DNA of 64,000 nt from Gemmatimonadetes bacterium SCN 70-22 (GTDB taxonomy: Bacteria; Gemmatimonadota; Gemmatimonadetes; Gemmatimonadales; Gemmatimonadaceae): the NCBI GenBank assembly GCA_001724275.1, contig MEDZ01000016.1, positions 1 through 64,000 of the forward strand, read 5' to 3'. Shown here piece after piece: positions 9,101-64,000 of this stretch. A model generated the notes under the pieces. It had not been told where the DNA came from, did not search any database, and saw only the letters and a program-made list of their open reading frames with translations. A program made the position numbers and the translations under genes. The first letter of the stretch is position 1. Each line of letters starts with the position of its first letter.

Positions 9101-10096
9101 CTAGTGATGCCTCCGTGCGCGCCTCAGGGCCCGCATCACGGTGCGTCCGGCCGCGAAGGCCCCGGTCACCGTGTAGAGATAGAAGGTGTAGACCCGCCAC
9201 CATATGAGAGATGCTCCCAACAGCCGTGCAGGGAGCGTGCCGCCGAGGGCGACCTTGAACGCGACCTCGACGACCCCACCCCCGCCGGGGGCCGGCGCGA
9301 CGGCGGCGCCATACAATAGAACGAGGGGCCAGAGGAGGATCGGCCCCAGCGGCACCTGTTCCCCGTACGACCAGACGATGATGGGGAGGACGAGGAGGCG
9401 GGCGCAGACGTGCAGGATGGAAAAGAGGAGGGCGAGCGCCATGGTCCCGCGATGGGCGGCCCTGAGCGATGCGACGCTCCCCCGCAGCTGCCGCAGCCCC
9501 CGCTGCACGCGCCGCCAGATGAGGGCGTTGACCCCGATGGCGCGCACCCACGCGGGGCGCGGCCCCTTGGCGTTCCGGTGCGACAGCGTGTAGGCAAAGG
9601 CCCCCGCCCCCAGTACCCCGGCCGAATAGAGCAGCACGGTTCCCAGCATCCCCTTCACCAGCGGCCCCGACTCGCCGAGCAGGACGGCGAGCCCGAGGGT
9701 GACGGCAAAGAGCGAGAGGACTTCGAGGAAGACCTCGAGGAAGAGCACCACGACGACCCCGCCCAGGGGGGTCCCCGACTCGCTCAGGATGAGGAAGCGC
9801 GCGGGCTCGGCGCCGGAGCGCGAGGGGGTGATGGCGGCGGCGAAGTCACCGCCGAGGGTGGTGCGGAGGATCGCCCCGAAGGAGACCGGGACGCCGATGG
9901 CGTCGGCGCTGAACCGGATCTTGATGACCCGGAAGGCGATGTCGAGCGCGAACGCACCCAGGCACAACAGGTGTCCCCACCATGGGAGTCCAAGCGGCGC
10001 TCCCTCGGCGGGCCAGGCGGACGCGATGACATAGACCGAGACCCCGATCGTGACCAGGAACGAGATGGCGGTCAGGAACCAGCGGAACGGGGTCAA
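9101..10096 (-). CDS. Flippase-like integral membrane protein (lysylphosphatidylglycerol synthase TM family)
   Basis: A 331-residue polytopic membrane protein with about seven or eight hydrophobic segments. It shows the pattern of the UPF0104/lysylphosphatidylglycerol synthase transmembrane family, including the SRSGAEPARF segment near residue 100 and the PAPGGGGVVE segment near 275. Relatives flip or modify lipids in the cytoplasmic membrane, but this protein has no catalytic C-terminal domain. The longest frame starts with TTG; no ATG or GTG lies upstream in frame, so the start is uncertain. It is divergent from the sigma-factor gene at 10207. Confidence 0.8.
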   Translation of the reverse strand: MTPFRWFLTAISFLVTIGVSVYVIASAWPAEGAPLGLPWWGHLLCLGAFALDIAFRVIKIRFSADAIGVPVSFGAILRTTLGGDFAAAITPSRSGAEPARFLILSESGTPLGGVVVVLFLEVFLEVLSLFAVTLGLAVLLGESGPLVKGMLGTVLLYSAGVLGAGAFAYTLSHRNAKGPRPAWVRAIGVNALIWRRVQRGLRQLRGSVASLRAAHRGTMALALLFSILHVCARLLVLPIIVWSYGEQVPLGPILLWPLVLLYGAAVAPAPGGGGVVEVAFKVALGGTLPARLLGASLIWWRVYTFYLYTVTGAFAAGRTVMRALRRARRHH

Positions 10097-59896: not shown

Positions 59897-60181
59897 GGGA
59901 TGCGCCTGCATGCGCAGGCGTGGCAAGGGGACACCTCCCACTCCGCGGAGCGGTCCGGGGACGACCGCCCCCGCCGCGGCACCGACCTCGCGCGGCTCCA
60001 CAACCCTACCGTGCGGCGCCCCCTCGCGACCAGAGGGAAACCGCGCGGGAGCCGTCAGGGAGGCGCTGGCAGCCGTCCCGATGCGTGACGGGGAATCGCC
60101 GTCGTGGTGGGGTGTGGCGCCCATGGTCATTCCGGCATTCCCGCCATAGGGTTTCGGCACGAGCCGATCGGGAGACGGACC

Positions 60182-60799
60182 ATGCCGACCACCAAGCGCC
60201 TGCTGCTCCGGGGCGCTGCGCGGGAGCGGGTGCTCAAGGGGGCGACGACGCTGGCGGACGCCGTGCGCGTGACCCTCGGCCCCAAGTCGAAGTGGGTGCT
60301 GGTGGAGCGCCGATGGGGGCGCCCGCTGCTGATCGTCGCCGAGGACGTGGAGGGAGATGCCCCGGCGACGCTGGTGCTGAACCGGATGCGGGGCGTGCTC
60401 CCGTGCGCGGCGGTGAAGGCTCCGGGCTTCGGCGACCGTCGGCGCGCGATGCTCGACGACCTCGCGGTCCTGTGTGCGGGGCAGGTCGTCTCGCCCGAGA
60501 TGGGCGTGGCGTTGGAGCACCTGACGACTTCGCAGCTCGGGCGGGCCAAGCGCGTGGTGGTGGACCGAGACAGCACGACGATCATCGGCGGTGCCGGCGA
60601 GCGAGCCGCGATAGAGGGGCGTTGCCAGGAGATGCGCGCGCAGATCGCGCGGGCAACCTCGTACGACGACAAGGAGAAGCTCGAGGAGCGGCTTGCCAAG
60701 CTCGGCGGCGGTGTGGCCGTGGTGCATGTCGGCGCCCCATCGGAGGCCGAGCTCAAGCGCCGCAAGGAGGCGTTCGAGGAGATGCCGCTCGAGGTGTAG
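60182..60799 (+). CDS. Miniature GroEL-like protein (internally deleted chaperonin)
   Basis: A 205-residue protein. Residues 5-47 match the GroEL N-terminus ([19 protein letters not shown]). Residue 46 onward matches GroEL from about position 245, the middle of the apical domain ([37 protein letters not shown]), through [14 protein letters not shown] and [19 protein letters not shown] to about position 395. About 200 residues are thus missing in the middle, as well as the whole C-terminal equatorial part. Lost are the ATP-binding GDGTTT segment, the catalytic Asp near 398, and apical helix H. Helix I, which contacts substrate and GroES, is kept. A GGGAGACGG precedes the ATG. It cannot be an ATPase ring as built. 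It lies in the Hsp20-stress island and has an intact, conserved frame. Confidence 0.85.
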
Positions 60800-60943
60800 C
60801 GCGGGGGGAGCGGAACCGTGCCACGACCTGTCGGCGATAACCCTCACGACGGAGGGGGGCTTTCGGACAGCACGCCGATGCGCGCCACACAGATTGCCAG
60901 TGGAGAGTGCAGGTGGTGGGTTACATCTCTACCGTGGTGTCAT

Positions 60944-62059
60944 ATGCTCAGCTATCGAGACCTGACGCACCTCGCGACCGACTACCGTGAGCGGCAGGTG
61001 CTCACCGTGTATCTCCACACGACTTCGGAGAATCCGGCCGAGCGCAACATGTGGCAGGCCGAACTGGACCATGCGCTCGATGCCTTGCGCGCGCGCGTGA
61101 AGGGCGGGAATCACGCCGAGCGCACGAATCTCGAGAAGGCCATCGAGCAGCTGCGTCAATGGGTGATCATGCGCAGGAGCGCCCTGCGAAGCCCCGGGGT
61201 CGTGGTCATCGTCTCGCCCGAGGAGGTACTCTACGCGGCTCCGACGGATACGGTCGTGCCGAACGTGGCGACGTGGAGCAAGGGGATCCACCTGGCGCCG
61301 CTCCTCAGGAGCGCGTCGTACGGGGAGCCGTCGGCGGTCCTCCTGGTCGACGGCCGCAACGCGCACCTCTTCCGTTATGAGCCGCCACGGCTGGTGGAGC
61401 GCCTGGAGACGATGTCGACCAAGGAGGACATCGACGCCGAGCGGAACCTCGGAGCGCCGACGGGTGCCTTCCACCGGGGGACCCGGGGCCCGACGGCGGC
61501 GGACGAGGCCGACCGGCTGAAGATGGCGGCACGCCAGCGCTTGTACGCCGATGCGGTCGAGAAGGCGATCTCGCTCGCTGCCAAGGAAGGGTGGGTGGTG
61601 TTGACGGGGACCACGCGGGCGGTGACGGCGGCCAGGCAGCAGGTGCCGTCGCCGATGCTGGCGCGCACCATCACGGTGGATCACGTCGACATTCACGTGA
61701 GCGATTTCGAGCTCGCCCAGGCGGTGACGCGGGCGATCGCCGACCGGGAGATGCAACGCGACCGCGAGCTGGTGCGCGAGATCCTGGACGAACACGGTGC
61801 CCGCGGGAAGGGGGTGGCCGGCCTCGAGGCGGCCCGGGCGCTGCTGGAGCGCGACGGCGTGGCCGATCTCCTGCTCAGCGAGAGATTCGTCGCCGGGCGT
61901 CCGGAGGAAACCGACGAGCTGGTGCGCGCGGCGATCGGTCACGGGGCCACCGTTCGCCAGGTGAATGGGGAAGCGGCCGCCGACATGGACGCGCAGGGCG
62001 AGGGCGTCGTCGCCCGCCTGCGGTACAACATGCCCGTGGGCGAGGTGGCGACACTGTAG
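60944..62059 (+). CDS. Bacterial archaeo-eukaryotic release-factor-like protein (baeRF/Vms1 family)
   Basis: A 371-residue protein. The fold resembles archaeal/eukaryotic release factor 1, as found in baeRF and Vms1/ANKZF1 proteins. Recognised segments are YRERQVLTVYLHT at the start, RSPGVVVIVSPEEVLYA near 88, SAVLLVDGRNAHLFRYEPPRLVERLE near 130, and WVVLTGTTRAVTAARQQVP near 215. The last part includes ARALLERDGVADLLLSERF. These proteins are linked to ribosome rescue or hibernation and commonly sit beside stress genes. It starts 144 bp after the miniature chaperonin gene on the same strand. Confidence 0.82.
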   Translation: MLSYRDLTHLATDYRERQVLTVYLHTTSENPAERNMWQAELDHALDALRARVKGGNHAERTNLEKAIEQLRQWVIMRRSALRSPGVVVIVSPEEVLYAAPTDTVVPNVATWSKGIHLAPLLRSASYGEPSAVLLVDGRNAHLFRYEPPRLVERLETMSTKEDIDAERNLGAPTGAFHRGTRGPTAADEADRLKMAARQRLYADAVEKAISLAAKEGWVVLTGTTRAVTAARQQVPSPMLARTITVDHVDIHVSDFELAQAVTRAIADREMQRDRELVREILDEHGARGKGVAGLEAARALLERDGVADLLLSERFVAGRPEETDELVRAAIGHGATVRQVNGEAAADMDAQGEGVVARLRYNMPVGEVATL

Positions 62060-62166
62060 GCGTTCATCGGGACGAAAGCCACGCCCCGCGAGGTTGCAGG
62101 GAGGGGCGGCGCACGGATGCCCCGTGCGCCGCCCCTTTCCCTGCTCATGACATCCCCGGACCGCAA

Positions 62167-62892
62167 ATGCCGCTCGCGCTCGCCCTGCTTTCCATCGTTG
62201 GATACCTCGCGCCGGCCGCCGCCGCCCACGTCGGCGATGCCGTTCCCTGCACGACGACCGAGGGCGCGCCGCTCCCGCTCATCGAGCGCCCCTCGCCGGC
62301 CGGGAGTGCCCCGCTGGTCCTCCTCCTCACCGGTGATGGCGGGTGGGCTCACGCAGACGAGGAAGTGGCGCAGGCGCTGCGCGCGCGAGGAAGCGCGGTG
62401 GTGGGGGTGAACATGCGCGCCTACCTTCGCACGCGGCGCTCCCCCGACGAGGCGGCGCGCGACCTGGCGTGCGTGGCCCGCGCCTACTCCCAGGCGTGGC
62501 GGCGCGACCGGATCATCCTCCTCGGCTACTCGCGCGGCGCCGACATCGCCCCGTTCGCCGCGGCCCGATGGCCGGCCGACCTGCGCGCGCGCCTCGCCAT
62601 GGTGGTGCTCGTCTCGATGTCGGCGCGGGCGAACTTCCAGTTCCACCTGGTCGACCTCATCCGCGACGTGGAGCGGCCAGACGACGTGGCGTTGGCTCCC
62701 GAGATCGAGCGTCTGCGCGGGCTGAACGTCCTGTGCGTGTACGGCGAGGATGACCGCACGACAGGGTGCCTGGCCGCCGACACGACCGTCGTGCGGCGCG
62801 TGGCGCGCCCCGGAGGGCACCGGCTGACGGAGGGATTCGACGCAATTGCCTCGCTGCTGGCCCCCGCACTCGAGGCGCAGCCGGTGCGTTAG
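62167..62892 (+). CDS. virJ: AcvB/VirJ-like periplasmic hydrolase
   Basis: A 241-residue protein with a signal peptide (LALLSIVGYLAPAAAAH). It is an alpha/beta hydrolase of the VirJ/AcvB type: LLLTGDGGWAHADEEVAQAL near 50, the nucleophile-elbow-like LLGYSRGADIAPFAA near 118, NVLCVYGEDDRTTGC near 190 and GGHRLTEGFD near 217, giving candidate Ser, Asp and His. In Agrobacterium and Rhizobium tropici this family hydrolyses lysyl-phosphatidylglycerol in the periplasm. Here it faces an MprF-like synthase gene 71 bp downstream. The stop codon TAG lies in CGTTAGGC. Confidence 0.85.
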   Translation: MPLALALLSIVGYLAPAAAAHVGDAVPCTTTEGAPLPLIERPSPAGSAPLVLLLTGDGGWAHADEEVAQALRARGSAVVGVNMRAYLRTRRSPDEAARDLACVARAYSQAWRRDRIILLGYSRGADIAPFAAARWPADLRARLAMVVLVSMSARANFQFHLVDLIRDVERPDDVALAPEIERLRGLNVLCVYGEDDRTTGCLAADTTVVRRVARPGGHRLTEGFDAIASLLAPALEAQPVR

Positions 62893-62963
62893 GCGAATTG
62901 GGCGCGCTGCATGCGGTTGGTGCGGGGGGAGCCGGAGCGAGAGGCGCCCGCCGGCGGCGGTGC

Positions 62964-64000
62964 CTAACGGGCCACGAGCCCTCGCACCCCGCCCGAGATC
63001 AGCGTCATGACGTCGAGGAGGATGCGGGGCAGCGCCATCCGATGCGTCGTCGCCAGGTAGCGCGGCTCCCAGGTCGGGTCGAACTTCTCCTTGTAGCGCC
63101 GCAGCCCCTGGAAGTTGTAGACCGCCTCGCCGTGCTCGTACATGAGCGCCGCGATGCGCGCCCACCGCGTCGAGAAGGCGTGCGGCTCGAACCCGGACAG
63201 TGGCGCCATCCCCAACCCCATGCGCCGGAAGCCCCGCCCCTGCGCCCACAGCATGAGTTCGGCGAACAGGAAGTCCATCACCCCGTCGGGGCCCGTATCG
63301 TCATGGCGCATGAGGTCCACCGAGACATCGCTGTTCCCCGCCGTGAGGATGTTGGCGAAGGCGACGATGCGCTCCCCGACGCGCACCACGGCGATGTCGA
63401 AGTTGCACAGGTAGTCCCGGTCGAAGACGCCAAGCGAGAAGCCCTTCTCGGCGGTGGCCTTCTGCTGCAGCCAAGAGTCGGAGACGCGCTCCAGCTCGGG
63501 CAGGATCGTGTGCACCGCGCCGCGCTCCACCACCTCGAACGTCGCCCCGCCCCGCGCCGCCTCGCGATGGCTGCGCCGCAACCCCTTCCGCCTCCCCCCA
63601 TCGAGGGTGAAGTCACGCAACGAAACGAACGCCTCCTCGCCCAGCTTGACGATGGCGAAGCCGAGTTCGATGCACAGCGGGAGGTAGTCGGGGCCGATCT
63701 GGTACAGCACCGGCCACCCCCCGGCGCGGTCGGCCACGGCCATGAAGCGCAGCAGGAGCTCGCGCCCGGACTGCGGGTTCCCGATCGGCTCGTGCAGCGC
63801 CACGAAGCTGCGCCCCCGCACGGCGTACATCAGGAACGCGTCGCCGCGCTCGCTGATGAGGAACGACTTGTCGCCCAGCAGCGCCAGGTTCCCCTCCACG
63901 TTGGTGGATGACGGGAGAATGCCGCGCACCACGTTCAGCGCGGAAGCGTCGGGTGGGGGAAGGGCAACGCGCCCACGCCGCAACAACCGCAGCAGCCCCA
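62964..64000 (-). CDS. mprF: MprF-like phosphatidylglycerol lysyltransferase, C-terminal part (runs off the window)
   Basis: The 5' end lies beyond the window; the frame is open through base 64000. The visible 344 residues form the DUF2156/GNAT-like aminoacyltransferase domain of MprF: LALLGDKSFLISERGDAFLMY near the start, LYQIGPDYLPLCIELGF, the GGRRKGLRRSHREAARGG segment, DVSVDLMRHDDTGPDGVMDFLFAELM and the AVYNFQGLRRYKEKFDPTWEPRYLA ending. MprF transfers lysine from Lys-tRNA to phosphatidylglycerol and flips the product; its membrane flippase domain should lie just outside the window. The nearby VirJ-like protein is of the family that cleaves this lipid. Its stop codon is in CGTTAGGC. Confidence 0.88.
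   Translation of the reverse strand, partial: GLLRLLRRGRVALPPPDASALNVVRGILPSSTNVEGNLALLGDKSFLISERGDAFLMYAVRGRSFVALHEPIGNPQSGRELLLRFMAVADRAGGWPVLYQIGPDYLPLCIELGFAIVKLGEEAFVSLRDFTLDGGRRKGLRRSHREAARGGATFEVVERGAVHTILPELERVSDSWLQQKATAEKGFSLGVFDRDYLCNFDIAVVRVGERIVAFANILTAGNSDVSVDLMRHDDTGPDGVMDFLFAELMLWAQGRGFRRMGLGMAPLSGFEPHAFSTRWARIAALMYEHGEAVYNFQGLRRYKEKFDPTWEPRYLATTHRMALPRILLDVMTLISGGVRGLVAR

Follow-up and report, generated by a model that had tools for sequence, protein, structure and literature searches.

A VirJ-type hydrolase gene facing an MprF-type synthase gene in a Gemmatimonadaceae genome, and a VirJ paralogue predicted to be inactive beside the linked sensor genes

The window analyzed here is the whole 64,000-nucleotide stretch of DNA, bases 1-64000 of contig C16, taken from a genome assembled into 84 contigs (99.98% complete, 1.1% contamination). 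Its last few kilobases contain the following features.

60818..62059, plus strand: baeRF_family10 protein (profile match), the upstream same-strand neighbor of VirJ1, given for context only
62167..62892, plus strand: VirJ1, a single-domain VirJ/AcvB-type alpha/beta hydrolase of 241 amino acids (PF06057, match to 9xhm, aligned motifs)
62893..62963, no strand: gap of 71 bp between the two stop codons (ORF ends)
62964..64000, minus strand: C-terminal part of an MprF/LpiA-type protein, with the last membrane segments and the aminoacyl-phosphatidylglycerol synthase domain (PF09924, ORF)

The VirJ1 reading frame begins with an ATG at 62167 and its stop codon ends at 62892. On the minus strand the stop codon of mprF starts at 62964, and the frame is open up to the end of contig C16 at 64342, which falls inside the gene. 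The first-pass annotation had named these two protein families and had described them as facing each other on opposite strands across 71 bp. Both assignments are borne out by profile scores (150.2 bits against PF06057, where the curated cut-off is 22, and 300 bits against PF09924) and the orientation is borne out by the coordinates. The convergent pair of a VirJ-type hydrolase and an MprF-type synthase is thereby confirmed as real, and the same convergent VirJ1/mprF pair is present in a second genome of the genus, G002. The baeRF_family10 gene ends 107 bp before the start of VirJ1. Neither a terminator-like site in 61900-63100 nor a sigma-70-like promoter near VirJ1 was found, and the RNA fold of the 71-bp gap is not unusual (z 0.14). 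Farther upstream of VirJ1, the plus strand carries a 231-aa ORF at 60104-60799 that, judging by eye, we take to resemble a shortened GroEL-type chaperonin.

VirJ1 matches the sequence of the AcvB crystal structure (9xhm) with an E value of 2.4e-32 and contains the motifs TGDGGW, GYSRGAD and GGH. GYSRGAD aligns to Ser336 and Asp340 of AcvB and GGH aligns to His433, so both members of the catalytic Ser-His dyad are present. Asp271 and Asp340, which are involved in substrate binding by AcvB, are kept in the alignment, as is a hydrophobic Leu-Ile at the position of the AcvB membrane loop (378-379). Additionally, the N-terminus of VirJ1 is hydrophobic and by eye forms a putative export signal. An AlphaFold model of VirJ1 with 53 sequences has a pLDDT of 89.4 and a pTM of 0.86, and its structural matches are alpha/beta hydrolases, with domain 1 of Brucella VirJ at rank 18. 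AcvB is absent among the best 50 structure matches of this model in a library extending to April 2026.

The remainder of mprF is located on a different contig. Its flippase half forms the end of contig C13 (L012:10366-11598) and matches PF03706 with 49.3 bits by hmmscan, which is above the cut-off; a six-frame PF03706 search of the genome listed five other genes and missed this half. Aligned to MprF 7f47, the half on C13 spans residues 26-410 and that on C16 residues 410-866. Three of the four head-group residues described for the LpiA flippase in PMC8131360 (D234, Y303 and R304) are kept, and the fourth, Y307, is Phe. The two contig ends have only 10 bp in common, where their reading frames meet, and C13 runs a further 245 bases that include a stop codon. 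Elsewhere in the assembly the last 234 bases of this tail match only four short stretches of 24-41 bases, and a peptide read from the tail has no Pfam match. We regard the tail as a probable assembly error. G002 has a single frame, approximately 876 aa long with an uncertain start, that spans the flippase and synthase halves within an unbroken order of VirJ1 facing mprF, then kinase, regulator and, on the other strand, VirJ2. Given the stop codon in the C13 tail and the mere 10 bp in common, it is from G002 that we infer an intact mprF across the C13-C16 junction in the window's strain. The flippase domain that the first-pass annotation proposed to look for just outside the window, and whose absence it named as refuting evidence, is present, on C13 in this genome and within a single frame in G002. 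If C13 were instead real to its end, then the 245-bp tail with its stop codon would mean that mprF is broken in this strain, with a flippase-only protein terminating after RRLDAA; this is highly improbable, as the two halves join in frame at a point where solved MprF structures are continuous, the C16 half is open to its end and the G002 gene is intact. Elsewhere in the genome, a second LPG_synthase_C match (135 bits) on contig C8 (L011:5988-8860) directly adjoins a ClC-type channel gene, and an LPG_synthase_TM match (80 bits, 346-aa open frame) is found on the minus strand of the window at 9161-9985 with no PF09924 match beside it.

On C13, mprF is preceded by genes for a response regulator (PF00072 and PF00486) and then a kinase (HisKA, HAMP and HATPase). 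The kinase stop codon is 78 bp from the listed mprF start, a spacing that suggests that regulator, kinase and mprF constitute one transcript. It appears that mprF closes this run, which supports the view, taken earlier from the opposing strands, that the hydrolase and synthase genes are likely to be separately regulated. Beyond the regulator, the opposite strand codes for a small secreted basic ORF and a second VirJ.

L012:6953-7687 (contig C13), strand opposite to the regulator: VirJ2, a VirJ paralogue (alignment)

A regulator or kinase of the same type adjoins VirJ or mprF in 8 of 21 genomes, counting G034, where there is only a regulator that the contig end truncates. In 5 of 11 loci the 110 bp preceding the regulator start contain a conserved TTAA-N7-TTA sequence, which presumably resembles a PmrA-type box. 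This sequence is absent from both strands of the window and so provides no link to VirJ1; the idea of a common regulatory site was set aside. The small secreted ORF (L012:7717-7995) is rich in Ala, Lys and Thr, with counterparts in L043, L040, L047, L067, L057, L073, L075 and L161. A composition scan for such ORFs returned 21 loci from about nine genomes (L001-L009 left out), and those checked adjoin a regulator of the same type. The G002 ORF falls below the scan thresholds, there is no match in G034 or L143, and the G029 ORF has a PepSY domain (29.9 bits versus a cut-off of 24). These ORFs may resemble Asr-type acid-shock proteins, an identity that we rejected, as none of four small ORFs compared with Pfam scored above a family cut-off and two gave weak matches to unrelated families.

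Among 99 genomes, the window's own included, PF06057 was found in 20 and PF09924 in 37, with 20 of the 99 scoring above 200 bits for the latter (rows read by eye). The two sets of 20 have 19 genomes in common. The exceptions are G001, which is 74% complete and whose contig stops within the flippase half, and G040, where a synthase domain occurs but no VirJ. Among the 19, the PF06057 match of G046 is weak (25.9 bits) and concerns a hydrolase of a different, lipoprotein-like type. In a wider set of 179 family genomes, a VirJ-type match occurs in 45, MprF in 59 and both in 42, as raw counts that ignore kinship and are based on matches at E 1e-20 to the VirJ2 alignment (up to 15 candidates scored per genome) and to the MprF half. 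A VirJ-type match occurs without MprF in 3 of the 45 (G001, G116 and G122), and MprF occurs without such a match in 17 of the 179.

For 67 named loci, to which several genomes contribute two, mprF is in the fetched stretch in 45 and absent from it in 22; mprF is followed by VirJ on the same strand in 37, the genes diverge in 6, VirJ precedes mprF in 2 and none is convergent. The mprF-VirJ tandems occur in records from Acidobacteriota, Proteobacteria, Elusimicrobia, Verrucomicrobia and Anaeromyxobacter. Among the 20 genomes with PF06057, the convergent pair is found in the window's genome and in G002, mprF followed by VirJ on one strand in seven, and a divergent arrangement in four, two of which have the genes about 4 kb apart; in five others the genes are not in one fetched locus (G048 being limited by short contigs) and G001 is cut off. 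Thus the pairing of VirJ with mprF is of a known kind, its convergent order is unusual, and conservation of that order, raised by the first-pass annotation as a point to check, is not the rule (none of the 45 named loci that have both in the fetched stretch). In G046 the different lipoprotein-like alpha/beta hydrolase (L046:7299-8135) faces mprF (L046:4584-7259) across 39 bp, so that convergent order recurs there with another hydrolase. Separately, an open frame of 777 aa in locus L042 of G032 gives two VirJ-type matches, in the manner of AcvB, and a second VirJ of this genome adjoins mprF. The impression that the pairing is not commonly mentioned in this lineage agrees with our searches of the open-licence literature, which gave no report of a VirJ/MprF pair in Gemmatimonadota among the matches listed, no paper on Gemmatimonas together with lysyl-phosphatidylglycerol, and nothing usable on Gemmatimonas lipids among the matches listed.

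From the sequences, VirJ1 and MprF probably make and remove aminoacyl-phosphatidylglycerol (aaPG) in the manner of LpiA and AcvB, a reading to which we assign a probability of nearly 0.8. It is based on an MprF with a synthase domain and an in-frame flippase, a VirJ1 with the alpha/beta hydrolase fold and the Ser-His residues of AcvB, and co-occurrence in 42 of 45 genomes. MprF would load an amino acid from tRNA onto phosphatidylglycerol (PG) and flip the lipid to the periplasmic leaflet, where exported VirJ1 would cleave the ester and give back PG. Going by gene order, mprF would be transcribed with the OmpR-type regulator and kinase, so that synthesis would follow an envelope signal. VirJ1, on the other strand, would be independent of this run, being transcribed either from a promoter of its own or together with the gene that ends 107 bp before it, and would act as a brake; VirJ2 may work with the sensor. 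A different possibility is that VirJ1 is a periplasmic esterase for another substrate and lies beside mprF incidentally, as VirJ and mprF are apart in several genomes and VirJ occurs without MprF in G116 and G122. This is very unlikely given the 42 of 45 co-occurrence and the mprF-VirJ tandems of several phyla, and the G116 and G122 proteins form the sister clade of VirJ2, not of VirJ1.

The first-pass annotation had assumed lysine as the amino acid that the pair would handle. According to PMC13197417, docking places AcvB Asp370 in contact with the lysine side chain, a D370A substitution lowers activity, and Thr or Ser occupies this position in alanyl-PG (Ala-PG) hydrolases. VirJ1 has Asn in place of Asp370, the residue linked to the lysyl-PG (Lys-PG) specificity of AcvB, and the position is acidic in none of 39 family rows, a count that leaves out a remote G021 hydrolase with His at 370. 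For named loci it is acidic in 1 of 23 from gemmatimonads versus 31 of 36 from other phyla (Fisher p 1.8e-10), a comparison that ignores kinship, excludes a gap and seven rows whose phylum is not named, and is drawn from loci found with two scan patterns, one of which has Asn/Ser at 370 and so favors such sequences; the 39 family rows do not come from that pattern scan. As judged by alignment, loss of the acidic residue argues against lysine. In the synthase, however, nothing indicates a switch. Ten conserved positions distinguish LpiA (Lys) from P. aeruginosa MprF (Ala); at these the window synthase is LpiA-like at 6 and P. aeruginosa-like at 0, and the commonest residue of gemmatimonad-type synthases is that of LpiA at all 10, although the positions were picked because the other group is LpiA-like there (28 acidic-type versus 26 other sequences). 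The synthase domain scores 277 and 274 bits with two LpiA-type chains and 245 with an Ala-PG synthase, yet its lowest score (204 bits) is with a Lys-PG synthase from a different lineage. We rejected the synthase as a guide to the amino acid, there being no switch found and the strongest separating position, LpiA 666, being possibly a matter of lineage drift. Column 666 is Arg in 23 of 26 gemmatimonad-type synthases and Gln, His, Lys or Asn in the other group; at column 670 a basic residue is often replaced and may have moved by one helical turn. A Lys-PG system as in Agrobacterium, with position 370 not deciding the substrate, would accord with these LpiA-like positions and scores and with the Asp271 and Asp340 that AcvB needs and VirJ1 keeps; with the evidence from position 370 on the opposite side, we regard it as possible but doubtful. 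Lysine is thus not supported, as the hydrolases lack the acidic residue, although the synthase does not point away from it.

VirJ2 differs from VirJ1 in its catalytic residues. In all four genomes that have it (G000, which is the window's genome, G001, G002 and G030) Ala replaces Ser336 and His433 is missing, with Asp271 kept. The 35 other family rows have Ser in all 35 and His in 34, the remaining row (G048) being cut off. VirJ2 is confined to these 4 of the 179 family genomes, with a drop from 360 to 172 bits at the next best match. Its dN/dS among G000, G001 and G002 is 0.21-0.37, compared with 0.33 for VirJ1 and 0.25-0.36 for the kinase, by a simple Nei-Gojobori calculation that includes a few codons before the likely start and leaves out G030; this shows that VirJ2 is under purifying selection in the three genomes compared. 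From its residues we predict that VirJ2 is catalytically dead. The papers in the open-licence literature that match a term for an inactive VirJ paralogue do not use the word pseudoenzyme.

In a midpoint-rooted tree of 40 rows, VirJ2 forms one clade (100/100) that is sister to the VirJs of G116 and G122 (98/92). These nearest relatives keep Ser and His, have TSESGR or SGEAGR instead of TGDGGW, and adjoin the same type of sensor genes and a small ORF. Neither genome (97% and 95% complete) has a PF09924 match, and it is mainly this occurrence without MprF that suggests that the clade left lipid hydrolysis. Counting against such a departure is G013, where a VirJ in the same place beside sensor genes keeps the whole catalytic set, with MprF on another contig; this VirJ does not join the clade of VirJ2, G116 and G122. 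We propose that VirJ2 became an accessory of the sensor. In its full form the proposal, which we hold tentatively and consider rather unlikely as a whole, is that in the window's genus and one related genome VirJ2 would be a periplasmic accessory of the mprF-linked two-component system that lost its catalytic residues, keeps the binding pocket and reports lipid or amino-acid state to the kinase, with VirJ1 performing hydrolysis and the G116 and G122 proteins, in which the dyad is intact and the motif for substrate binding is altered, representing a surviving intermediate stage. We also considered that VirJ2 is the detached N-terminal domain of a split AcvB. This is not favored, as VirJ2 groups, in a tree that does not include the AcvB N-terminal domain, with VirJ catalytic-domain proteins as sister to those of G116 and G122, and it has no PDB match by sequence at E 0.1.

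Overall, the window ends in a pair of known kind in unusual order for which the lysine part is unsupported, and VirJ2, outside the window, is the more interesting neighbor. The pair would extend aaPG turnover to the Gemmatimonadaceae, for which no earlier report was found among the matches listed. It resembles the LpiA-AcvB system of Agrobacterium tumefaciens (Lys-PG synthase/flippase and periplasmic hydrolase) in its two protein families, in its make-and-erase aaPG logic and in the Ser-His dyad, Asp271 and Asp340 of VirJ1. Unlike that system, the genes here are convergent and form no operon, mprF follows a two-component system, and VirJ1 is a single-domain protein that lacks the AcvB N-terminal domain and has Asn for Asp370. 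VirJ of the octopine Ti plasmid, described as a single-domain Lys-PG hydrolase in PMC13135905, is like VirJ1 in domain content and approximate length, but VirJ1 differs in adjoining mprF. With MprF-PA0919 of P. aeruginosa (Ala-PG synthase and hydrolase) the pair shares a non-acidic hydrolase position 370 (PMC13197417), whereas the window synthase has none of the 10 P. aeruginosa residues at the separating positions. Since the putative lysine-reading residue is missing from almost every gemmatimonad hydrolase examined and the partner synthases look LpiA-like, these pairs provide a clear test of what sets the amino acid. Finally, AcvB itself has an N-terminal alpha/beta hydrolase domain without activity beside its catalytic domain, whose role is not settled (PMC13135905, PMC13197417) and which the authors of PMC13197417 speculate is regulatory. 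VirJ2 is comparable in being a probably inactive alpha/beta hydrolase alongside a VirJ1 predicted to be catalytic, yet differs in that it is a separate gene, groups with VirJ catalytic-domain sequences and adjoins a two-component system. A dead paralogue that is its own gene beside a sensor bears on the question of the inactive AcvB domain, since the role of an inactive VirJ can here be tested by itself.
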